Positions 26,536 through 45,302 of a stretch of 64,000 nucleotides of DNA are shown in pieces. The notes under the pieces are model-generated. The model did not search any database, was not told the origin of the DNA, and was given only the letters and a program-made list of their open reading frames with translations. The position numbers and the translations under genes were made by a program. The stretch's first letter is position 1. Every line of letters starts with the position of its first letter. Source of the stretch: Acidovorax sp. (GTDB taxonomy: Bacteria > Pseudomonadota > Gammaproteobacteria > Burkholderiales > Burkholderiaceae_C); NCBI RefSeq assembly GCF_016783915.1, contig NZ_JADHVT010000004.1, positions 1-64,000 of the forward strand. Reading direction: 5' to 3'.

Positions 26536-27243
26536 TCAGGCTGACAGCGGCACCTGCGGCTGGGCGGTGAGCCGGTAGCCCGCACCGCGCACGGTTTCCA
26601 CCATCACCGACGCCGCACCCAGAGCCTCGCGCAGCCGCTTGACATGCACGTCCACCGTGCGTTCTTCGATGAAAACATGGTCGCCCCACACCTTGTCGAG
26701 CAGCTGCGACCGGCTGTGCACACGCTCGGCATGCTTCATCAAGAAATGCAGCAGCTTGAACTCGGTAGGCCCCACCTTCAGGGGCTGGCTCTGGAATGTG
26801 ACCCGATAGGTCGCGGCGTCCAGCACCAGCTCGCCAATGGTCACGCTGTCACTCACCTGCTCGGGCGCGCGGCGGCGCAGCACCGCGCGGATGCGGGCCA
26901 GCAGCTCCTGCGTGGAAAAGGGCTTGGTGATGTAGTCGTCGGCACCGGCGTCCAGCCCGGCCACCTTGTCCGGCTCATCCCCACGCGCGGTGAGCATGAG
27001 GATGGGGATGGGCTTGGTGCGGCTGTCTGCACGCCACTTGCGCGCCAGCGACAGACCGCTCTGCCCTGGCAGCATCCAGTCCAGCAGGATCACATCGGGC
27101 AGCACGGCATCCAGCTCGCGCTGCGCGCTGTCGCCGTCTTCCGCCCAGAAGGGCTGGAAACCGTTGTGGCGCAGGTTGACTGCAATCAGTTCGGCAATCG
27201 CGGGTTCGTCCTCCACGATGAGGACACGGGGAAGCTTTCTCAT
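26536..27243 (-). CDS. phoB: Phosphate regulon response regulator
   Basis: OmpR-family transcription factor that binds tandem 11-bp-spaced TGTCA half-sites under phosphate starvation. The 235 residues comprise a receiver domain with the acidic pocket E11/D12, phosphoacceptor D55 (LLDWMLPG) and K in ITKPFS, and a winged-helix domain with LVLDAATYRVTF, GPTEFKLLHFLM and the recognition helix region VFIEERTVDVHVKRLREAL. Candidate PhoB sites are visible upstream of pstS, ppk and olsB in this window. It lies between phoU and phoR. Confidence 0.97.
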   Translation of the reverse strand: MRKLPRVLIVEDEPAIAELIAVNLRHNGFQPFWAEDGDSAQRELDAVLPDVILLDWMLPGQSGLSLARKWRADSRTKPIPILMLTARGDEPDKVAGLDAGADDYITKPFSTQELLARIRAVLRRRAPEQVSDSVTIGELVLDAATYRVTFQSQPLKVGPTEFKLLHFLMKHAERVHSRSQLLDKVWGDHVFIEERTVDVHVKRLREALGAASVMVETVRGAGYRLTAQPQVPLSA

Positions 27244-31879: not shown

Positions 31880-31913
31880 ACTCTAGAGGTCTATCATGAC
31901 AATTCAGTGACAC
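31880..31913 (-). promoter_or_regulatory. Pho box and -10 region of the pst operon
   Basis: On the minus strand GTGTCAC, four bases, then TTGTCAT form a canonical 7-4-7 PhoB box (31896-31913). Ten bases later TAGAGT matches the -10 consensus at four of six positions. There is no separate -35 box, as expected for a PhoB-activated promoter. The start codon of pstS is about 38 bp further on. Confidence 0.85.
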
Positions 31914-34233: not shown

Positions 34234-34698
34234 TCAAAGAAACTCCGGTGACTGCACTGCCATCAGCACGGTCTGGCTGTGGTCCCAGCGCTGGCGCTGG
34301 CGCAGCCACCACACGGAGCCCTTGCGCACAGGGCACTCGGGGGCCTGGAGTTGCAGCAACTGGGCAACGGTCTGGCCTAGCATGGGCTGGTGCCCCACCA
34401 CCAGTACCGCGCCCTTAGCGTGCGGCCATTGCACAAGCTCCAGCAAATCCTGTGGTGTTCCGCCTGGCAACAACTCGGCACGCATCTTGAATTTGCGTCC
34501 CAAGGCATGGGCAGTCTGCTCAGTTCGCCGTGCTGGACTTGCCATCACCCTGAGGCCTTCCGGCAGTTGACGATCAAGCCAGGCGGCCATGCGCGCCGCC
34601 TGCTTCTCACCCCGGCTGGTAAGAGGGCGGGCAAGGTCATCGCCGCCATCTCCGGCCTCTTCCGCTTCGGCATGACGCCAAAGAATCAAATCCATCAT
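34234..34698 (-). CDS. sixA: Phosphohistidine phosphatase SixA
   Basis: Histidine-phosphatase-superfamily enzyme that removes phosphate from phosphohistidine, in E. coli on the phosphotransferase system. The 154-residue protein has the phospho-acceptor motif LILWRHAEAEE with Arg-His, a second Arg in ASPARRTEQTA, and the second catalytic His in VVGHQPMLGQ. Its start overlaps the ppk stop (ATGA), so it is probably co-translated with ppk, an arrangement common in betaproteobacteria. Confidence 0.93.
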   Translation of the reverse strand: MMDLILWRHAEAEEAGDGGDDLARPLTSRGEKQAARMAAWLDRQLPEGLRVMASPARRTEQTAHALGRKFKMRAELLPGGTPQDLLELVQWPHAKGAVLVVGHQPMLGQTVAQLLQLQAPECPVRKGSVWWLRQRQRWDHSQTVLMAVQSPEFL

Positions 34699-36890
34699 GC
34701 GGCCCCTGGCTCCTCGCGGCCGAGGGCAGGCCGCGGCCCATAGCGCACCATCAACGCGTTCTGCGCACCACGACCGTCCACAGGGTGCGCAGCGCGGTCA
34801 TAAGTGCCGCCGGCGTTCAACGTCCAGGCGTCCCGGTCATCACACAGGTAGGCCACCAAACATTCGTCGATGATCTGCTGGCGCAACGTGGCGTCGGTGA
34901 CCGGCCACGCCAGCTCCACGCGGCGCATCATGTTGCGGTTCATCCAGTCGGCACTCGACAGATAGAGGTCTTCCTCGCCGCCCGCGCGGAAATAGAAAAC
35001 ACGCGTGTGCTCCAGGAACCGGCCAATCACCGAGCGCACCCGGATGTTGTCAGTCACTCCAGGCACCTGCGCGGCCAGCATGCAGGCCCCGCGCACAATC
35101 AGATCGATGCGCGCGCCACGCTGCCCGGCGAGGATCAACGCTCGCATCAGCCCCTCGTCGGTCAGGGCATTCATCTTGGCCACAATCCGTGCGTCTTCTC
35201 CACGGCTTGCCGCCTGCCCCACGCGCTCGATTTTTTCTATCATGCGGCGGTGCAGATGGAACGGTGCAAGCATGAGCTTGCGTAGCTTGGGCGGCCGGTT
35301 CTGGCTGGCGAGGTGATTGAAAACACCATCCATGTCGGCGGTGGTCTCTTCATCTGCGGTGAGGTAACTCAGGTCGGTATACAGCTTGGCCGTGCGCACG
35401 TTGTAGTTGCCGGTGGACAGGTGACCGTAGCGGCGCAACTGCCGCCCTTCGCGACGTGTGACAAGCAGCATTTTGGCGTGGGTCTTGAGGCCCACCACGC
35501 CGTAGACCACCTGCGCACCAATCGACTCCAGCGCCTCAGCCCAATTGATGTTGGCCTCTTCGTCAAAGCGTGCTTTCAGCTCCACCACCGCCATCACCTC
35601 CTTGCCCCGGCGTACCGCCTCGCTGAGCAGGTCCATGAGTTCGGAGTCGGAGCCTGTGCGGTAGATGGTCTGTTTGATGACCAGCACCTGCGGGTCGTTC
35701 ACGGCCTCCCGCAAGAACGCGAGCAAACCATCAAAGCTCTCGAAAGGCTGGTGGATCAACACGTCGCGCTGGCGCAGCTGATCCATGATGGACACCCCCG
35801 GCTGAAGCTGCCTCGGCCATGCGGAGCTCCAAGGCGGAAACAGCAACGAGGGATCGTTCACCAAGTCCACCAGCTGATTCAGGCGCACGAGGTTCACAGG
35901 ACCATGTACACGGTACAAGGCCGCGCTGGGCAGATCAAATTGCTCCAGCAAAAAGTCGTACAGGAAGCGGGAGCAACCTGCAGAGACTTCCAGCCGAACA
36001 GCCTGTCCGTAGTGGCGGTGCTGCAGGCCCTGCCGCAAGGCAGTGCGCAGGTTGCGCACATCCTCTTCGTCCAGTGCCAGATCGGAATGGCGCGTGACAC
36101 GAAACTGCGAAAACTCCGTCACCTCCCGACCAGGAAAGAGGTCTTCCAGGTGGGCCCGCACGATGCTCGACAAGCTGACGAACAATGCCCCATCGGGCGC
36201 TACCTTCTTCGGCATGCGGATCAAACGGGGCAAGGCGCGCGGCACCTTCACGATCGCGATTTCGTTCTCGCGCCCAAAGGCATCGTGTCCCTTGAGGCGC
36301 ACAATAAAGTTCAGCGACTTGTTGGCCACCTGGGGAAACGGATGGGCAGGGTCTAGCCCCACCGGAATCAACAAGGGGCGGACCTCGCGCACAAAATACT
36401 CGTGTACCCAGCGCCTCTGCTCTGCGGACCGGTCGCCGTGCGCAACGATACGGATGCCATGTTGTGCAAATGCGGGGACCAGCGCTTCGTTGTATAGGGT
36501 GTATTGCCGCTCCACCAGGTCGTGCACCTGGGAAGATAGGGCCTCAAAAGATGCTGCGGTGTAGAGGCCCTTGGTCTCACCCTTCTTAGCCGCCGTGATG
36601 TGCGCTGCCGCACGCACTTCAAAAAACTCATCAAGGTTGGACGACACGATGCACAGATAGCGCAGCCGCTCCAGCAGCGGAACATCCGTGCGGACCGCCC
36701 AATCGAACACGCGTTCGTTGAATGCCAGGATGCTGTGGTCCCGGTCCAGAAACATGTGGGGCGTAACGCCAGCAGCAACCCCTACCGACGAAAGATCATT
36801 GTCATGTGACAAGGTGTGCGAGGAATACCCCACAGCATCGGTGTGCTCGGGCTGCAGAGGGACAGAATCAACAGGAGGCAGGGGCGGCAT
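34695..36890 (-). CDS. ppk: Polyphosphate kinase 1
   Basis: Reversibly makes polyphosphate from ATP at the membrane. The 731 residues include a roughly 40-residue variable leader, then FLDRDHSILAFNERVFDWA of the N domain, the head domain, and two phospholipase-D-like catalytic domains. The autophosphorylated His is in YGHLSTGNYN; the second catalytic His is in LKTHAKMLLV. The end of the protein is an extra tail rich in Arg, Pro and Gly. A PhoB box plus a -10-like hexamer sit just upstream, inside the 3' end of the agt gene. sixA follows with a 4-bp overlap. Confidence 0.97.
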   Translation of the reverse strand: MPPLPPVDSVPLQPEHTDAVGYSSHTLSHDNDLSSVGVAAGVTPHMFLDRDHSILAFNERVFDWAVRTDVPLLERLRYLCIVSSNLDEFFEVRAAAHITAAKKGETKGLYTAASFEALSSQVHDLVERQYTLYNEALVPAFAQHGIRIVAHGDRSAEQRRWVHEYFVREVRPLLIPVGLDPAHPFPQVANKSLNFIVRLKGHDAFGRENEIAIVKVPRALPRLIRMPKKVAPDGALFVSLSSIVRAHLEDLFPGREVTEFSQFRVTRHSDLALDEEDVRNLRTALRQGLQHRHYGQAVRLEVSAGCSRFLYDFLLEQFDLPSAALYRVHGPVNLVRLNQLVDLVNDPSLLFPPWSSAWPRQLQPGVSIMDQLRQRDVLIHQPFESFDGLLAFLREAVNDPQVLVIKQTIYRTGSDSELMDLLSEAVRRGKEVMAVVELKARFDEEANINWAEALESIGAQVVYGVVGLKTHAKMLLVTRREGRQLRRYGHLSTGNYNVRTAKLYTDLSYLTADEETTADMDGVFNHLASQNRPPKLRKLMLAPFHLHRRMIEKIERVGQAASRGEDARIVAKMNALTDEGLMRALILAGQRGARIDLIVRGACMLAAQVPGVTDNIRVRSVIGRFLEHTRVFYFRAGGEEDLYLSSADWMNRNMMRRVELAWPVTDATLRQQIIDECLVAYLCDDRDAWTLNAGGTYDRAAHPVDGRGAQNALMVRYGPRPALGREEPGAA

Positions 36891-36913: not shown

Positions 36914-36970
36914 AGGATCGCTGCAGTATTTAACGCCCAGATGACAACTGCGTGACAGACTTTGTGACAG
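36914..36970 (-). promoter_or_regulatory. Pho box and -10 region of ppk, inside the agt 3' end
   Basis: On the minus strand CTGTCAC, CTGTCAC and TTGTCAT occur with start-to-start distances of 12 and 11 bp (36964-36970, 36952-36958, 36941-36947). The last two form a perfect 7-4-7 PhoB box. About ten bases later AATACT is a usable -10. The box overlaps the last codons of the upstream gene, which therefore reads VSVTKSVTQLSS. Confidence 0.8.
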
Positions 36971-38021
36971 ACACAAAAACTCCCTGTTCGCTGGAGCGGG
37001 CTGGTACCAGATACTGCTGAAACAATCTTGCTGCATGGGCCCAGGTGAACTCCAGCGCCCTGCTGCGGGCCTCGGTGCGCGGAATGGCTAAAGCCTGCTG
37101 CGCGGCGACCAGCAGGCTGTCATGCAATACACCACCCACAGGTGCCTTCCCGTCTCCAGCCCCCAGCACCTCACGGGGGCCGTCTTCAGGAAAGGCAGCG
37201 ACCGGTGTGCCACAAGCCATCGCCTCCAGCATTACCAGCCCGAAGGTCTCTGAGCGGCTGGGAAACACAAAGACATCGGCCGAGGCGTAGACCTGTGCCA
37301 GCGCCTCCCGGTCCAGGATGCCGAGCCAGCGCACCTGAGGGTACTTGGCTTTCAGCCGCGCTTCCAGCGGACCTACACCGCACACCACTTTGGTTCCCGG
37401 CATGTCTATCTGCAAAAAGGCATCAATGTTCTTTTCATATGAAAGGCGGCCTACGTACAGCGCTACAGGATGAGCCAACACGCCAGTGAGCGGACTCTGG
37501 CATACCTCGCCGTGAAAGCGAAACGCCTGGGTGTCCACACCGTGCGTCCACAAACGAAGTTGACGAAAGCCTCGCTGCTCCAGCATCTGCAAGACGCCCT
37601 GTGTAGGCACCATTACCCCTGACGAGGGGCGGTGAAAATGCCTGAAAAGTGCATAGCCCCAACCCAGCGGTATGCGCAGGGCAGCCTGAAGAATCTCGGG
37701 GAACCGCGTATGAAAGGCTGTGGTGAAGGCCAAACCACGCTTGAGACAGTAACGACGCCCGGCCCACCCCAAAGGCCCTTCGGTGGCCAAATGAACGGCA
37801 TCGGGCTGCAGGGCGTCCAACTTGTGAGCGAGTAATTTGTAGGGTCGCACTGCCAGATCAATGCCCGCATAACCAGGGCACGGACGGGTAGCAAACTGGC
37901 CTGGATGCAGCACATGCACGTCATGCCCGACATCCTCCAGCTCCCGCACCAGCTCCACCAACGTGGTCACCACGCCATTGACCTGTGGTAGCCATGCATC
38001 GGTCAGCAAAGCGATCTTCAT
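36930..38021 (-). CDS. agt: GT4-family glycosyltransferase, Agt-like (glycolipid synthesis)
   Basis: Probable cytoplasmic-face transferase that adds a sugar to diacylglycerol, making glycolipid in place of phospholipid. The start MKIALLTDAWLPQVNGVVTTL at 38021 is the family-typical GT-B amino end; the tracked ORF is 43 codons too long. Further features are VHLATEGPLGWAGRRYCLKR, TAFHTRFPE, the donor-binding LYVGRLSYEKNID, and the E-x7-E motif in SRSETFGLVMLEAMACGTPV. Its ATG overlaps the plcP stop by 4 bp. The pairing with a PlcP-like hydrolase is what points to Agt rather than another GT4. The exact sugar and acceptor are inferred. The ppk promoter lies in its 3' end. Confidence 0.75.
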   Translation of the reverse strand: MKIALLTDAWLPQVNGVVTTLVELVRELEDVGHDVHVLHPGQFATRPCPGYAGIDLAVRPYKLLAHKLDALQPDAVHLATEGPLGWAGRRYCLKRGLAFTTAFHTRFPEILQAALRIPLGWGYALFRHFHRPSSGVMVPTQGVLQMLEQRGFRQLRLWTHGVDTQAFRFHGEVCQSPLTGVLAHPVALYVGRLSYEKNIDAFLQIDMPGTKVVCGVGPLEARLKAKYPQVRWLGILDREALAQVYASADVFVFPSRSETFGLVMLEAMACGTPVAAFPEDGPREVLGAGDGKAPVGGVLHDSLLVAAQQALAIPRTEARSRALEFTWAHAARLFQQYLVPARSSEQGVFVSVTKSVTQLSSGR

Positions 38022-38887
38022 GCGGACACCTGTGTGGTCTGGCTCGACAGATTGGCCGCAGGCATAGCTGGCCATTGCAACAGCTCCAGTCGACCATCGA
38101 GATGCTCGACGAGTGCCGTGTGGCTCTCCACCCAGTCGCCATCGTTGCAATACAAGGTGCCGCCAATCTCGCGCATCTCGGCGCGGTGAATATGTCCGCA
38201 GACCACTCCATCATGCCCACGGCGACGGGCCTCTGCGGCCACCGCCACCTCAAAGTCGGTGACGTAGTTAAGCGCCTTTTTCACCTTGCCTTTCAGGTAT
38301 GCGGACAGCGACCAATACGGCAGTCCCATGCGTGCCCTGAGCGTGTTGAGATGGCGATTCAGCCTGAGCGTGAACTCATACAGGTTGTCACCGACATAGG
38401 CGAGCCATTTGGCGCACTGGATCACGCCATCAAAGTGGTCACCGTGCGTGACCCACAGGCTGCGCCCATCAGCAGTGGTATGCACTGCATCAGACACCAC
38501 CTCGATACCACCAAAAGAATGCCCCACAAATGCCCTGGCAAACTCGTCGTGGTTACCAGGAACAAACACTACGCGGCACCCCTTGCGCGCACGCCGCAAC
38601 AGCTTTTGCACAACATCGTTGTGGGCTTGCGGCCAGAACCACCGGCGACGCAACTGCCACCCATCCACGATGTCACCCACCAGGTACAGATGGTCGCTGG
38701 GATGGTGCTTCAGAAAATCCAGCAGCGCTACAGCCTGACAACCCGGTGTGCCGAGATGCAGATCCGAAATGAACACCGCGCGATATCGCTGTTGGCCGGC
38801 GAGCGATGCATGCGCGTCGGGCTCTGCATCCTGCGGCACCAGGGACTCGTTCAACCAGGGGCCCAGGGCGTCGAACGCGGCACGCAC
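38018..38887 (-). CDS. plcP: Metallophosphoesterase, PlcP-like phospholipase C
   Basis: Calcineurin-like metallophosphoesterase. It resembles UDP-2,3-diacylglucosamine hydrolases and is likely to be annotated so, but the length (289 residues) and the GDIVDGWQLRRRWFWPQAHN and LLRRARKG segments fit the PlcP family, which cleaves phospholipid headgroups to diacylglycerol during phosphate starvation. Metal motifs are FISDLHLG, VGDIVD, VPGNHDE, THGDHFD and CGHIHRA. It starts with GTG, 3 bp after the olsB stop, and its stop overlaps the agt start. The diacylglycerol product would feed the Agt-like enzyme. Confidence 0.8.
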   Translation of the reverse strand: MRAAFDALGPWLNESLVPQDAEPDAHASLAGQQRYRAVFISDLHLGTPGCQAVALLDFLKHHPSDHLYLVGDIVDGWQLRRRWFWPQAHNDVVQKLLRRARKGCRVVFVPGNHDEFARAFVGHSFGGIEVVSDAVHTTADGRSLWVTHGDHFDGVIQCAKWLAYVGDNLYEFTLRLNRHLNTLRARMGLPYWSLSAYLKGKVKKALNYVTDFEVAVAAEARRRGHDGVVCGHIHRAEMREIGGTLYCNDGDWVESHTALVEHLDGRLELLQWPAMPAANLSSQTTQVSA

Positions 38888-38890
38888 CGG

Positions 38891-39730
38891 TCAAGCTCCC
38901 AGAAAATGCTTGCGATAGCGGGGATGCAGGTCCGCCAGCCGCATCAGCATGGGCAGGTCGGCTGTATTGAAGTCCGGATCCCAAGCAGGCGCCCCCAGCA
39001 CGCGGGCTCCCAGTCGCAGGTAGCCCTTGATCAGGGCGGGGGGGTCCACTGCAATGGAGCCATCCAGATGCTCCACAGGCAGCGGCAGGCGTGGCAGCAC
39101 GTGGTATTCGATCGGTGCCAGGTGGGTCTTGCGCACTTGCTGCCAGATGCTGGCAGCAGCGTCGCCGCTGACCACCCCATTGTGGAGCATCGGAATGCTC
39201 GCGCAGCCAATCATCGTGTCGAGTTCGTTGCGTACCATGAAGTCCGCCAACGCACTCCACAGAGCCATGATCACGCCGCCGTGGCGGTGATCGGGGTGCA
39301 CGCAGCTACGGCCCAACTCCACCATGCGCGTGCGCAGCGTGCGCAAGCGCGTCAGGTCGAACTCGGTATCGCTGTACGTTCCGCCCACCCGTTTGGCCTG
39401 CGCGGGCGTCAGCACCCGGTAAGTCCCAATGACTTGCTGACTGTGGGCATCGCGCACCAGAAGGTGCTCGCAATAGTCGTCAAACAGGTCCACATCATGC
39501 CCAGGAATGGGGGTCGTCAATCGAGCGCCCATCTCTGCCGCAAACACCTCAAACCGCAGGCGTTGCGCCTCACGGACTTCGTCTACATGCCTCGCCCAAG
39601 TCACCTCGATAGCGCCACGCGCCGGGGCAACATGCGCCGCGCCCGGCACAACGCCAGGACGCTGAACAATACCGGTGCCAGCCGCCTCAGGCGATGTGGA
39701 CAACTGCATCAAAGTGGGCAGGTCGTTCAT
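38891..39730 (-). CDS. olsB: L-ornithine N-acyltransferase, OlsB-like
   Basis: GNAT-related acyltransferase expected to transfer a 3-hydroxyacyl chain from acyl-ACP to ornithine, the first step of ornithine-lipid synthesis. The start MNDLPTLMQLSTSPE at 39730 follows GAAGGAGA; the tracked ORF runs into the promoter. Family features are AQRLRFEVFAAEMGA, HDVDLFDDYCEHLLVRD, VGTYRVL, MVELGRSCVHPDHR and GCASIPM. The 279-residue length fits. No OlsA gene is adjacent, so the second acylation would need an enzyme encoded elsewhere. It is the first gene of an operon with plcP and agt and has four phased PhoB half-sites upstream. A plain acetyltransferase is the alternative reading. Confidence 0.85.
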   Translation of the reverse strand: MNDLPTLMQLSTSPEAAGTGIVQRPGVVPGAAHVAPARGAIEVTWARHVDEVREAQRLRFEVFAAEMGARLTTPIPGHDVDLFDDYCEHLLVRDAHSQQVIGTYRVLTPAQAKRVGGTYSDTEFDLTRLRTLRTRMVELGRSCVHPDHRHGGVIMALWSALADFMVRNELDTMIGCASIPMLHNGVVSGDAAASIWQQVRKTHLAPIEYHVLPRLPLPVEHLDGSIAVDPPALIKGYLRLGARVLGAPAWDPDFNTADLPMLMRLADLHPRYRKHFLGA

Positions 39731-39822
39731 GGACAACGTCTCCTTCGGTAAGAACGGGCACAGCTGGAATTTCCTAGAGGAGCGGCAATCCGCTTTCCTG
39801 GCCGGGAGTGTGAAAGCCGCGC

Positions 39823-39862
39823 ATGACACCCCCATGTCTCCGTTATGTCAAAGCCATGACAC
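39823..39862 (-). promoter_or_regulatory. Array of four PhoB half-sites upstream of olsB
   Basis: Read on the minus strand: GTGTCAT, TTGACAT, GAGACAT and GTGTCAT, each followed by four bases, so the starts are exactly 11 bp apart. This equals two tandem PhoB boxes on one helical face. The last half-site lies about 93 bp before the olsB ATG; a weak -10-like CACACT follows ten bases after it. Confidence 0.8.
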
Positions 39863-39925
39863 ACCGCCGTGACCATTGACACAGGCCCCGCCAACGACCT
39901 GCATAATTGATTGAGGAACTCCACC

Positions 39926-42877
39926 GTGTCTTCACCCGCCCTGCCCCCCACCCGCAGCCCCATCGCAGTCTTTGTGGCAGTGTTTGTGCTGGCAGCAGCC
40001 TGTGCTGGGGCAGTGGTCTGGACGCTGGAACGCCAGGAACGTGCGCAGCAGCGCATCCAGGCGGCCGATGTGGCGGGCGATCATGTGCAGGCGCTGCAAC
40101 GTGCCATCGAGTTGGCCCTATCGGCCAACAACACCCTGGTGGCACTGGTGCGCCAAGGCCACGGCAACGTACCTCAGTTCGAGGAAATTGGCATGCAGAT
40201 GCTGCCGTTCTATCCGGGTATCGCGGCCATGGGTCTGTCCCCGGGAGGGGTGGTGCAGCAGGTCGTACCGCGCAAGGGCAACGAGAATTCGATTGGTTTT
40301 GACCAGCTCAACGATCCCCGCCAAGGGGCGGAGTCCGCGCGCGCACGCGAATCCGGCCTGCTGACACTGGCGGGCCCTATGGAGTTGGTGCAGGGCGGCC
40401 TGGGGGTCGTGGGGCGCCAACCGGTGTACCTGGAAGACGACCTGGGGCGCCGGAACTTCTGGGGGTTCACTTACGTCACCATCCGCCTGCCCGAGGTGCT
40501 GGCCACAGCCCGGCTACCCCAGCTCACGGAACGGGGTTTCCACTATCGACTGTGGCGTGTTCGCCCCGACAACAAACAGGAGCAGACGATTGCGACGTCT
40601 GACCCTCCGCCCACGAGCGACGCCGTAGGACGATCGCTGACCCTGCCCAATGGCCAGTGGACGCTCAGTCTGGCCCCTGCCAAGGGGTGGGGTGCGCCGG
40701 ACGTGCTGGCCCTGCGCTGTGCAGTGGGTTTGCTGTTTGCGTTGTTGATGGGCTACCTCGCGCGCTTGCTGGTCGAATTGAAGGCGCACGAGCGCGGCCT
40801 TGCTACACAGGTGGCCCAGCGCACCTCCGAAATCCAGGCCACGCAGCAGCAGCTGAGCGCGACCATCGACGCCATTCCCGATCCGTTGTTTGAATTCGAT
40901 CAGGATGGCCGTTATTGCAGCGTACATAGTCCCCGCGCCGAGTTGCTCATGGGCCCTGCTGACCAGTTGATCGGCCGCCATGTCACAGACGTGCTGCCCG
41001 CACTGGCCGCACTGACTGTGATGGATGTGCTCCATGAAGCACATTCCCAGGGCTGGTCCACCGGACGGCAAATCATGCTGGATCTGCCCGGCCTGGGGCC
41101 CACCTGGTTCGAACTTTCTGCGGCCCGCAAGACAGGCTCAGCGGGGGGGAAACCCCGCTTCATTCTGCTGTCCCGTGACATCTCTGAACGCAAGCGCTCA
41201 CAAGAACAACTGCAGCTGACAGCCCAGGTATTTGACCAGAGCGGCGAGGCCATCGTGATCGCCGATGCAGCCCACACCATCGTGCGCATCAATCGGGCAT
41301 TCAGCCGTATCACAGGCTACACAGAGGCGGAGGCCGTAGGGCGGTCGATGCGCCTGCTCACGGTGGCCGAGTCCACCCGCGACTTCAACGCTGACTCGGT
41401 GTACGCCCACCTGACTCAGCAGGGGCACTGGGAGGGTGAGGCCTGGGGCCGCCGCAAGGATGGATCGACCTACCCACAGTGGCTGTCCGTGAGCAGTGTG
41501 CGTGACGGCAACGGCAGTACCACCCACTCCATTACTTTGTTCCGCGACATCACGCTTCAGCGCGAGGCGCAAGACCGCATCCAGCGGCTCGCGCATTTCG
41601 ACCCCCTCACGGACCTGCCCAACCGCGCGCTCCTGTCCGAGCGTGCCCAGCGCCACATTGAACAAGAGCAAGCGCGGGGCGGAACACTGGCCCTGCTGTT
41701 CCTGGACCTGGACCATTTCAAGAACGTGAACGACTCCCTGGGGCACCGTATTGGCGACATCCTGCTGGTGGCCGTCGCGCGACGGCTGGAGTCGCTGCTG
41801 GGCCCGCAGGACACCGTATCGCGCCTGGGGGGTGATGAATTTTTGTTGCTACTGCCTGCTGCCTCGGCCGTGCAAGCGGCCGACGTAGCCAACCGGTTGC
41901 TGATCGCCGTGGCACAGCCGTTTCAGGTCGAGCCTTACGAACTCACAACCACACTGTCCGTGGGCATAGCCATGTATCCCGCGGACGGAGATTCGTTCGA
42001 CACCCTGTACCAGCGAGCCGATGCCGCCATGTACCGCGCCAAGCAAAGCGGGCGCAACCGCTTTGGCTTTTTCACTGCAGACCTGGAAGCTCGTACAGCC
42101 CGGGCCTTGCAGATCGAAAACGCACTGCGCCGGGCGCTGGAACGCAATCAGTTCGAGCTGCACTACCAACCCCAGGTATCACTTACCACGCGCCAGGTGG
42201 TCGGAGCCGAGGCGCTGCTGCGCTGGAGCCACCCCGAGCTGGGCATGGTGTCCCCGGCAGAATTCATCCCCGTGGCAGAGAGCAGCGGCATGATCGTCGC
42301 AATTGGCGAGTGGGTGCTGAACACTGCCGTGCATGACACCAAGCGCTGGCTGGACCTGCAATTGCCACTGCGGGCTGTGTCTGTCAACCTGTCGGCGGTG
42401 CAGTTCCGTCACCCACAGTTGCCTGAAATGGTGACGCGCTGCCTGCAACAGGCTGGACTGCCCGCCCGCCGGCTGGAGCTGGAACTGACCGAGGGCGCTG
42501 CAGTGGACGACCCCGCTGCGGCACTGGCCATGATGGACCAATTGCATGACCGGGGCGTGCGGCTGTCGATGGATGACTTTGGCACAGGATATTCGTCGTT
42601 GAGCTACCTCAAGCGCTTCCAGATCTACAAGCTCAAGATCGACCAGTCGTTTGTGCGCGACCTTGACGATGATGCCAACGACCGGGCCATCGTCAGCGCA
42701 ATCATCCGCATGGCACAGGCACTGGGCATGCAAACCACTGCCGAAGGGGTGGAGACCGATGGCCAGCTGGAGTTTCTGCGCGCGCAGGGCTGCGACGAAG
42801 GGCAGGGTTACCTGTTCAGCCGCCCTCTGGCGGCCGATGCATTTGAAGCCTACCTGCGGGAACACCTGGCCCGCTGA
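39926..42877 (+). CDS. Membrane GGDEF-EAL protein with CHASE and PAS sensors
   Basis: Makes and/or degrades cyclic di-GMP. I prefer the GTG at 39926 (GAGGA 8 nt upstream) over the tracked TTG five codons earlier, giving 983 residues. Order: helix at about 13-32; periplasmic CHASE-like sensor (FYPGIAAMGLSPGG, GFDQLNDPRQGAESARARESG); helix near 275-292; two PAS domains (AIPDPLFEFDQDGRYCS, GEAIVIADAAHTIVRIN); GGDEF domain with intact SRLGGDEFLLLL; EAL domain with GAEALLRW, ELELTEGAA, DDFGTGYSSL and KIDQSFVRDL. Both active sites look intact, so it may be bifunctional. The next gene encodes a close catalytic paralogue with other sensors. Confidence 0.93.
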   Translation: MSSPALPPTRSPIAVFVAVFVLAAACAGAVVWTLERQERAQQRIQAADVAGDHVQALQRAIELALSANNTLVALVRQGHGNVPQFEEIGMQMLPFYPGIAAMGLSPGGVVQQVVPRKGNENSIGFDQLNDPRQGAESARARESGLLTLAGPMELVQGGLGVVGRQPVYLEDDLGRRNFWGFTYVTIRLPEVLATARLPQLTERGFHYRLWRVRPDNKQEQTIATSDPPPTSDAVGRSLTLPNGQWTLSLAPAKGWGAPDVLALRCAVGLLFALLMGYLARLLVELKAHERGLATQVAQRTSEIQATQQQLSATIDAIPDPLFEFDQDGRYCSVHSPRAELLMGPADQLIGRHVTDVLPALAALTVMDVLHEAHSQGWSTGRQIMLDLPGLGPTWFELSAARKTGSAGGKPRFILLSRDISERKRSQEQLQLTAQVFDQSGEAIVIADAAHTIVRINRAFSRITGYTEAEAVGRSMRLLTVAESTRDFNADSVYAHLTQQGHWEGEAWGRRKDGSTYPQWLSVSSVRDGNGSTTHSITLFRDITLQREAQDRIQRLAHFDPLTDLPNRALLSERAQRHIEQEQARGGTLALLFLDLDHFKNVNDSLGHRIGDILLVAVARRLESLLGPQDTVSRLGGDEFLLLLPAASAVQAADVANRLLIAVAQPFQVEPYELTTTLSVGIAMYPADGDSFDTLYQRADAAMYRAKQSGRNRFGFFTADLEARTARALQIENALRRALERNQFELHYQPQVSLTTRQVVGAEALLRWSHPELGMVSPAEFIPVAESSGMIVAIGEWVLNTAVHDTKRWLDLQLPLRAVSVNLSAVQFRHPQLPEMVTRCLQQAGLPARRLELELTEGAAVDDPAAALAMMDQLHDRGVRLSMDDFGTGYSSLSYLKRFQIYKLKIDQSFVRDLDDDANDRAIVSAIIRMAQALGMQTTAEGVETDGQLEFLRAQGCDEGQGYLFSRPLAADAFEAYLREHLAR

Positions 42878-43024
42878 CAACTCGGGTTGAACGCATCAGG
42901 CGCCTTGTCGCTCAGGCGCGTTGAAGGTTGAAGAGCTGGACTGGCGGCTGTCGTACGGCAGAACATGTGGCACCGCACCTGAGGCATACCCTCAAACGGC
43001 TTGTAAGCTGCCGCTGCTACACTT

Positions 43025-43040
43025 TGGCACAATTTTTGAG
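43025..43040 (+). promoter_or_regulatory. Weak sigma-54-like site before the second GGDEF-EAL gene
   Basis: TGGCAC, five bases, TTGAG resembles the -24/-12 consensus TGGCAC-N5-TTGCA, but the normally invariant C of the -12 GC is an A. It lies 31 bp before the ATG. Listed as a candidate only. Confidence 0.25.
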
Positions 43041-43070
43041 GCCATCTGGCCCTGCCGCCGTTCTGGTCTT

Positions 43071-45302
43071 ATGTATTCGCTGTTCAGCACTCCGCCCTCG
43101 CAGCGCGCCGGAGTGCCTCCTGACACCCCACTGCAACGCACCCTGCGTGAACAACAGACCCTCCTGGATAGCGCGGGAGTGGGTATCGTGTTCCTGCGCC
43201 AGCGCAGCGTGGTGCGCTGCAACCAGCGATATGCCGAAATTTTTGGCTATGGCAGCCCTGCCCGCTTGGTAGGACTCAATACCGAGGCTTTCTACCCAGA
43301 CCGCGATGCCTTTCGGGATCTGGGGCGCACCGCCTATCCCGTGCTGGCGCAGGGGCAGTCATTTCGCATCGAACGTCAGCTGCGCCGCCGTGATGGCACG
43401 CTGTTCTGGGGCAGCCTCACAGGAAGGCTCATCAATCCACACGACATCGGTGAGGGCTCGATCTGGATCGTGGACGACATCGATGAGCAAAAGCGTGCCC
43501 AGGCCGCACTGAATGCCGCTGTGCGCGAAAAACAATTGCTGTTTGACAGTGCCATGGTCGGCATCGTGTTCCTGCGCGACCGGTATTTGACCCGCTGCAA
43601 CCACCACTTTGAGCAGATGCTGGGCTTCGAGCCGGGTGAACTCATGGGCAGTTCATCGCGCCGCTGGTACGCCAGCGACGCAGCCTGGCAAGAAGTGGGC
43701 CGCCGCTGCTACCCGTCGCTGGTGGCAGGACAGTCGTACGAGGGCGAGGTGGAGCTATGCCGCAAGGACGGTACCCCCGTGATCTGCGAAGTCCGCAGCA
43801 AATGCATCGATCCGGCGGACCCTGCCCAGGGCACCATCTGGATCACCATGGACATCACCGACCGCAAACGCGCACAGGCGGTGTTGGCCCAGGCCCATGA
43901 GGAGCTGGAGCGGCAGGTGCAAGACCGCACGCGCGAGCTGCGCGAGACGGTGGAAAACCTGCACCGTGAAATCAATGACCGCAAGGCCGACCAGGAGCGT
44001 ATCTACTGGCTGGCTCACTACGATGCACTGACTGGCCTGCCCAACCGGGCCCTGCTCGCGGAACGTGCGCAGCAGGCCATTCAGGTGGCCCAGGAGAACC
44101 AGACACCGCTGGCCGTCATCTTCTTGGACCTGGATCACTTCAAGCACGTCAACGACTCTCTGGGTCACCGGGTAGGCGATGTGCTGCTGGTCGAGATTGC
44201 CAAACGCCTGCGCGCTGTGGTGCGCGACAAGGACACGGTGTCTCGCCTGGGAGGGGATGAGTTCATCCTGCTTCTGCGGGGCGCTGATGCGCGGGGCGCA
44301 GCCCGGGTCGCCAGCAAGTTGCAGGAGGCATCGCGTCAGCCGTACCAGATCGACCATCACGAGCTCACCATGGCCCCGTCGATGGGCATTGCGCTGTTCC
44401 CCCAGGACGGGCACGACTTCGACACGCTGACCCAATCGGCCGATGTGGCCATGTACCGTGCCAAGCTGGATGGGCGAAATACCTTTCGCTTCTTCACCCC
44501 CGAGATGCAGGCTCAGTCGGTGCGTGCCTTGCAGCTCGAAAACGCATTGCGCCGCGCCCTGGAGCGCGAGCAGTTTCACCTGCACTACCAGCCTCAGATG
44601 CACCTGGCCACGGGCACTGTACGCAGTGTGGAAGCCCTGCTGCGCTGGCAACACCCCCAGCTGGGTGCAATTTCTCCGGGAGAGTTCATTCCCATCGCGG
44701 AAGACAGCGGGCAGATTCTGCAAATCGGCGAGTGGGTGCTGCGCACAGCACTGGCCCAGCTCAAGACATGGCGCAGCTGCGGATTTCCCGAACTCACAAT
44801 GGCGGTCAACCTCTCGGCCATCCAGTTTCGCCAGCCACAACTGCCAGAGCTGGTAAGTCGGGTGCTGGCGGAGTCAGACCTGCCCCCTGATTCGCTGGAA
44901 TTGGAGCTGACGGAGGGCGTGGCCGTAGATGACCCCCATGCGGCAGTTGCCACCATGGACCAGTTGCATGCACGTGGGGTGCGAATGTCGATGGACGACT
45001 TCGGCACGGGCTACTCGTCACTCAGCCAGCTCAAACGATTCCAGATCTTCAAGTTGAAAATCGATCAATCCTTTGTGCGCGACCTGGGCAACGACAGCAA
45101 CGACCGCGCCATTGTCAGCGCCATCATCCGCATGGCGCAGGCGCTGGGCATGCGGACCACGGCGGAGGGGGTGGAAACCGAGAGTCAGCTGGCCTTTTTG
45201 CACGAACAAGGTTGCGACGAAGCGCAGGGCTACCACTTCAGCACGCCGCTGCCAGCAGAACAGCTGGAACGCTTCATGCGGCAACACACAACGGCGCACT
45301 AA
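43071..45302 (+). CDS. Cytoplasmic PAS-PAS-GGDEF-EAL protein
   Basis: Second cyclic di-GMP enzyme of a tandem pair. The start MYSLFSTPPSQRAGV at 43071 gives 743 residues; the tracked ORF extends 50 unlikely codons upstream. There is no transmembrane helix. Two PAS domains are clearly related to each other (SAGVGIVFLRQRSVVRCNQRYAEIFGY and SAMVGIVFLRDRYLTRCNHHFEQMLGF). A coiled coil (LAQAHEELERQVQDRTRELRE) leads to GGDEF with SRLGGDEFILLL and EAL with SVEALLRW, ELELTEGVA, DDFGTGYSSL and KIDQSFVRDL. The catalytic half is very similar to that of the preceding gene, suggesting tandem duplication with sensor exchange. Confidence 0.93.
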   Translation: MYSLFSTPPSQRAGVPPDTPLQRTLREQQTLLDSAGVGIVFLRQRSVVRCNQRYAEIFGYGSPARLVGLNTEAFYPDRDAFRDLGRTAYPVLAQGQSFRIERQLRRRDGTLFWGSLTGRLINPHDIGEGSIWIVDDIDEQKRAQAALNAAVREKQLLFDSAMVGIVFLRDRYLTRCNHHFEQMLGFEPGELMGSSSRRWYASDAAWQEVGRRCYPSLVAGQSYEGEVELCRKDGTPVICEVRSKCIDPADPAQGTIWITMDITDRKRAQAVLAQAHEELERQVQDRTRELRETVENLHREINDRKADQERIYWLAHYDALTGLPNRALLAERAQQAIQVAQENQTPLAVIFLDLDHFKHVNDSLGHRVGDVLLVEIAKRLRAVVRDKDTVSRLGGDEFILLLRGADARGAARVASKLQEASRQPYQIDHHELTMAPSMGIALFPQDGHDFDTLTQSADVAMYRAKLDGRNTFRFFTPEMQAQSVRALQLENALRRALEREQFHLHYQPQMHLATGTVRSVEALLRWQHPQLGAISPGEFIPIAEDSGQILQIGEWVLRTALAQLKTWRSCGFPELTMAVNLSAIQFRQPQLPELVSRVLAESDLPPDSLELELTEGVAVDDPHAAVATMDQLHARGVRMSMDDFGTGYSSLSQLKRFQIFKLKIDQSFVRDLGNDSNDRAIVSAIIRMAQALGMRTTAEGVETESQLAFLHEQGCDEAQGYHFSTPLPAEQLERFMRQHTTAH

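Follow-up and report, generated by a model that had tools for sequence, protein, structure and literature searches.

Four direct repeats on the minus strand, running from position 39862 to 39823, very likely form the operator, and the substitute for the −35 element, of a PhoB-activated sigma-70 promoter that serves a lipid-remodelling operon headed by olsB. As such, the array would very probably be the switch that lets the cell swap phosphorus-containing membrane lipids when phosphate is short. We favour this reading because the half-site consensus, the 7 + 4 phase, the orientation to olsB, the conservation, the −10 distance and the layout of the Escherichia coli pstS promoter all agree, and also because PhoB, PhoR and Pst genes lie in the window (the whole stretch of 64,000 nucleotides analysed here) and Pho boxes stand at other phosphate genes. 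At the olsB operon, binding by PhoB, induction at low phosphate, transcription as one unit and the activities of the enzymes are what we infer from sequence.

The initial annotation had described four PhoB half-sites at exact spacing on the minus strand, and direct reading of the letters gave the same heptamers, coordinates, phase and strand (Table 1). The spacers within the array, from half-site 1 to half-site 4, are GGCT, AACG and GGGG, 4 bp each, for an 11-bp phase; a Pho-box promoter should have at least two TGTCA-type heptamers directly repeated in this phase, and the array has four. In the matrix scan that had been proposed as a check, the array scored 37.6 on the minus strand, toward olsB, compared to 31.9 on the opposite strand, with a half-site matrix hand-set from the E. 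coli consensus. The high score on the opposite strand arises because TGTCA and TGACA are near-palindromic. The weakest of the four half-sites is GAGACAT (half-site 3), and slot 3 is divergent in relatives too. A degenerate four-site pattern with up to three mismatches had one match in the window and none in 100 dinucleotide shuffles of it. In pattern searches of the 4.95-Mb genome, four copies of TGTCAT at 11-bp phase with up to three mismatches were likewise matched once, and the reversed-pattern control yielded no match.

Table 1. Positions and strands of the features discussed in the text.
Feature	Positions	Strand	Remarks
PhoB half-site 1 (predicted)	39856–39862	−	GTGTCAT; slot 1 TGTCAY-like in 86 relatives
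PhoB half-site 2 (predicted)	39845–39851	−	TTGACAT
PhoB half-site 3 (predicted)	39834–39840	−	GAGACAT; slot divergent, with A or C at base 4 in relatives
PhoB half-site 4 (predicted)	39823–39829	−	GTGTCAT
Spacer, half-site 4 to −10 element	39813–39822	−	10 bp, GCGCGGCTTT; exactly 10 bp in 98%/97% of relatives' arrays
−10 element	39807–39812	−	CACACT; A at position 2 and T at position 6 near-invariant in relatives
Ribosome-binding site of olsB	39739–39745	−	AAGGAGA; read directly
olsB, ornithine N-acyltransferase-like GNAT protein	38891–39730	−	279 aa; PF13444, E 1.4e-35
plcP-like calcineurin-type metallophosphoesterase	38018–38887	−	289 aa; 3 bp after olsB; PF12850/PF00149
agt-like GT4 glycosyltransferase	36930–38021	−	363 aa; overlaps plcP stop by 4 bp; PF13439, PF00534
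Pho box upstream of ppk	36941–36958	−	CTGTCAC GCAG TTGTCAT; inside 3' end of agt
ppk, polyphosphate kinase 1	34695–36890	−	TIGR03705 over cut-off
Pho box of pstS	31896–31913	−	GTGTCAC TGAA TTGTCAT, then 10 bp, TAGAGT
phoB	26536–27243	−	DNA-binding domain nearest to 1gxp (E. coli PhoB); recognition helix near-identical

No ordinary sigma-70 −35/−10 pair was found in the region, as would follow from PhoB taking the place of the −35 contact. A PhoB-dependent promoter should have its −10 element about 10 bp downstream of the repeats and need no −35 hexamer, and this is the arrangement at olsB. The start of olsB is the ATG at 39730, preceded by AAGGAGA. An alternative start at 39835 was rejected, since it lies inside the array and upstream of the predicted transcription start, and the ribosome-binding site precedes the ATG at 39730.

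The conservation of the array was assessed among OlsB relatives gathered from 80 named loci and further family genomes. Four-site chains at 11-bp phase scoring at least 25 were present in 87 of 106 distinct upstream regions, compared to 11 of 2120 Markov shuffles, and chains at spacings of 8–10 and 12–14 bp reached this score in only 0–2 of the 106 regions. In the profile of 86 arrays, slots 1 and 4 read GTCA at positions 3–6 almost invariably; the fourth base was mixed in slot 2 and A or C, almost never T, in slot 3. Ten bases past slot 4, the profile showed a conserved C-A-c-A-c-T, while the columns upstream of the array (0.2 bit or less) and past the −10 element were near random, indicating that the conservation of the array reflects selection, not recent common descent. 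The position of the −10 element was assessed by picking the best array on half-sites alone and scoring hexamers at all spacers of 4–20 bp. With a spacer of exactly 10 bp, NANNNT was present in 98% of the 89 arrays from nearer relatives and in 97% of the 35 from more distant family members (OlsB identity of 60–80%); with other spacers, the share was 0–11%. A strict pattern of four sites and the −10 element was matched in 20 of 301 family genomes, once in each, and olsB or phoX was matched at every one of these loci; its reversed control had no match in the 301 genomes.

Twenty relatives at first seemed to be without an array. In nine of them it lies 300–2100 bp farther upstream, separated from olsB by phoX or a short ORF; the remaining ones have weak arrays, or too little upstream sequence to decide. 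A complete phoX (named from sequence) lies between array and olsB at loci L046 and L075. At 29 loci ppk comes after olsB and neither plcP nor agt is matched; other loci carry plcP-agt, or only plcP, ahead of ppk. Since the array stands ahead of varying genes, the promoter is the stable part and the gene content the variable one. The loci at which the array is kept and no plcP or agt match falls between olsB and ppk include L009, L011, L012, L056, L068, L072 and L076–L078. Short PhoX-like proteins of 181–187 aa, in which the middle of PhoX (~370 aa) is missing, are encoded between array and olsB at two loci (L029:4293–4838 and L053:4359–4922); they share 48% identity over 176 aa, which suggests that the short form is retained. 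Other short ORFs, of about 77–100 aa, occupy this place at L031, L059, L061, L079 and L093, and those of L031 and L061 have a CLRILRCTA-ALANSPGGLRF segment in common.

The intergenic region is common to olsB and a divergent CHASE-PAS-GGDEF-EAL gene (39926 on), and the array also scores high on the plus strand, so it could serve that gene or both genes. We consider this improbable: the plus strand has no NANNNT 10 bp past the array (39873–39878 reads CCATTG), the repeat orientation and the −10 element point to olsB, and in many genomes without a GGDEF-EAL neighbour the array still precedes olsB or phoX. As a promoter of the divergent gene the array was rejected on the missing −10 element and on the loci that keep it without that neighbour. 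The divergent gene is the first of two in tandem (39926–42877 and 42921–45302), whose PAS-GGDEF-EAL products have very similar GGDEF-EAL parts and lie divergent from the Pho operon; the CHASE domain is in the first.

The initial annotation placed the PhoB operator upstream of olsB, and this was supported, but what is regulated is most likely a whole operon, olsB-plcP-agt here and phoX-olsB-plcP-agt in other species, rather than olsB alone. The olsB product matches PF13444 above the cut-off, and its best NCBIfam matches are OlsB equivalogs (E 4.5e-46, 158 bits vs. a cut-off of 350). OlsB carries out the first step of ornithine-lipid synthesis, and olsA is required for the finished ornithine lipid. 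The second gene was rejected as LpxH (TIGR01854, 38 bits vs. a cut-off of 190). Because the genuine lpxH sits elsewhere in the genome, on another contig (199 bits, TIGR01854), the phosphoesterase at 38018–38887 is a paralogue. In records of a plasmid collection, the protein has 56% identity to a Pseudomonas aeruginosa protein and 49.5% to a Sinorhizobium protein. Public records label plcP-like genes UDP-2,3-diacylglucosamine diphosphatase, although a separate true lpxH exists here. The agt-like protein scores below curated family cut-offs. A metallophosphoesterase adjoining agt under a Pho box is the context that marks PlcP, and it is found at 38018–38887. By position and family, we take this gene to be plcP and its neighbour at 36930–38021 to be agt, with the enzyme activities presumed.

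The window also holds pstSCAB-phoU-phoB-phoR in addition to ppk (the pst and pho names were read from translations). Past ppk, the order is a ppx stretch on the other strand, then pstS, pstC, pstA, pstB, phoU, phoB and phoR. Among PDB entries, the DNA-binding domain of the PhoB encoded here is nearest to 1gxp, E. coli PhoB (E 4.3e-31), and its recognition region is nearly identical (ieertvdvhvkrlreal here vs. vedrtvdvhirrlrkal in E. coli PhoB). The tryptophan-glycine at the sigma contact, a contact named in PMC3348028, is conserved as well. A PhoB-dependent promoter presupposes a PhoB with a matching recognition helix and a PhoR, and the genome encodes both. With one mismatch allowed, the two-site pattern with the −10 element had 12 matches in this genome, compared to one in the control. 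Most of them are next to phosphate genes, which reading of the neighbouring ORFs named as pstS, ppk, olsB, phnC, phnM, ppk2 and two genes for glycerophosphodiester phosphodiesterases; a few of the 12 look unrelated or re-read the same place. These sites bear on whether another OmpR-family response regulator that reads 11-bp direct repeats might own the operator, as many members of that family are known to bind tandem repeats near 10–11 bp. We regard this as improbable, given that the half-sites match the E. coli Pho box and that the same motif and −10 distance recur before pstS family-wide and at other phosphate genes here.

PhoB could also bind the array and repress olsB, in the way that it represses its own promoter at high level (PMC6194859). 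This is very improbable, as the 10-bp distance to the −10 element is the one seen in the E. coli pstS promoter, which PhoB activates, and the region has no ordinary −35/−10 pair. A chance or compositional array of TGTCA-like words, a reading that could draw on the shortness of TGTCA and the frequency of single half-sites (5.4% of positions score at least 5), has next to no probability and is refuted by the conservation of the array. The initial annotation had called the phase and the core conservation very unlikely by chance. The array is absent from all 100 shuffles and has a single match in the genome, and its phase and −10 distance are kept in more than 100 relatives.

Under the preferred reading as a PhoB-activated promoter, shortage of phosphate would lead PhoR to phosphorylate PhoB, and two dimers of phosphorylated PhoB would bind head-to-tail along a single face of the DNA, on the four direct repeats of 11 bp. 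The cooperative binding of two dimers is what we infer from known PhoB structures. The dimer closest to the gene would bring RNA polymerase to CACACT, 10 bp downstream, with a transcript starting about 70 bp before the olsB ATG (near 39800). This transcript would span olsB and the plcP-like and agt-like genes, and would probably continue toward ppk, which has its own Pho box. OlsB would contribute to ornithine lipid, PlcP would strip phospholipid head groups to leave diacylglycerol and Agt would convert this to glycolipid, so that phosphorus is spared. Two dimers and a −10 element without the usual first T would be expected to give a low leak and a later and steeper response than at pstS.

The comparison with pstS was made on arrays anchored by requiring A2 and T6 of the −10 element, with position 1 left free. 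Two strong half-sites were found in 29 of 30 pstS upstream regions, with no additional sites ahead of them: the slots there scored at least 5 in 7–10% of cases vs. a background of 5%. For olsB, where the same anchor was placed in 79 of 106 regions, scores of at least 5 were reached in 92% and 85% at the two slots upstream. The −10 element of pstS began with T in 29 of 29 cases, mostly as TAGAGT, TACAGT or TAAAGT (TAnAGT), whereas the first base in the olsB regions was C in 72%, G in 24% and T in 3%. Mean matches to TATAAT were 3.97 for pstS vs. 3.13 for olsB; the p-values of this comparison count related genomes as independent and so overstate the certainty. These figures suggest that the olsB promoter is weaker alone and depends more on PhoB, so that lipids would be replaced late and with little leak. 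More tentatively, and with somewhat less than even probability, the Burkholderiaceae may have two classes of Pho promoter, of which the four-site class without a T-first −10 element would be tuned to deeper starvation and little leak, with olsB and phoX interchangeable behind a constant promoter. A strict rule linking half-site number to −10 type over all Pho genes was rejected, as the phnM site combines two half-sites with CACACT.

If the reading holds, ornithine-lipid and glycolipid synthesis of Acidovorax-type bacteria would be placed under phosphate control in one operon. The promoter model (four half-sites, 10 bp, NANNNT) could help to recognise the lipid-remodelling operon in annotation and to mend lpxH labels that were assigned automatically. 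Set side by side, the pstS and olsB promoters would provide a natural series on operator number, −10 quality and the order of the phosphate-starvation response.

Pho boxes before olsB have already been predicted in Burkholderia sensu lato, in 21 genomes at first and in all 43 once the matrix was refined (PMC7814305); a Pho box upstream of olsB in Burkholderiales is common to both studies. The survey used an 18-bp matrix of two half-sites, and it mentions, as data not shown, the replacement of phospholipids by ornithine lipids at low phosphate in Paraburkholderia xenovorans. The passages of it that were consulted describe neither the four-site array nor the fixed −10 position nor the plcP-agt operon. 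What is new here is the apparent two-tier pattern of pstS (two half-sites, TAnAGT) and the olsB/phoX operon (four half-sites, CACACT type). In marine bacteria and P. aeruginosa, plcP and agt, in this order and behind a Pho box, are the known unit for lipid remodelling in phosphate starvation (PMC4796936, PMC8528852); in contrast to those operons, olsB comes first and ppk after here, and phoX comes first in other species.

PhoB occupies repeats of this kind as tandem dimers, each arranged head-to-tail (PMC3348028, PMC4415409). The pstS promoter of E. coli (CTGTCAT, CTGTCAT, CTTACAT, CTGTCAC, ten bases, TATTTT) resembles the olsB array in its four half-sites, 11-bp phase and 10-bp spacer followed by the −10 element. 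Its third half-site is also divergent, with A at the fourth base (CTTACAT), like slot 3 here. The two differ in the −10 element, TATTTT in E. coli pstS vs. CACACT at olsB, and in the gene served: the four-site promoter drives a phosphate transporter in E. coli, whereas here it stands before a lipid and phosphatase operon and pstS has two half-sites.
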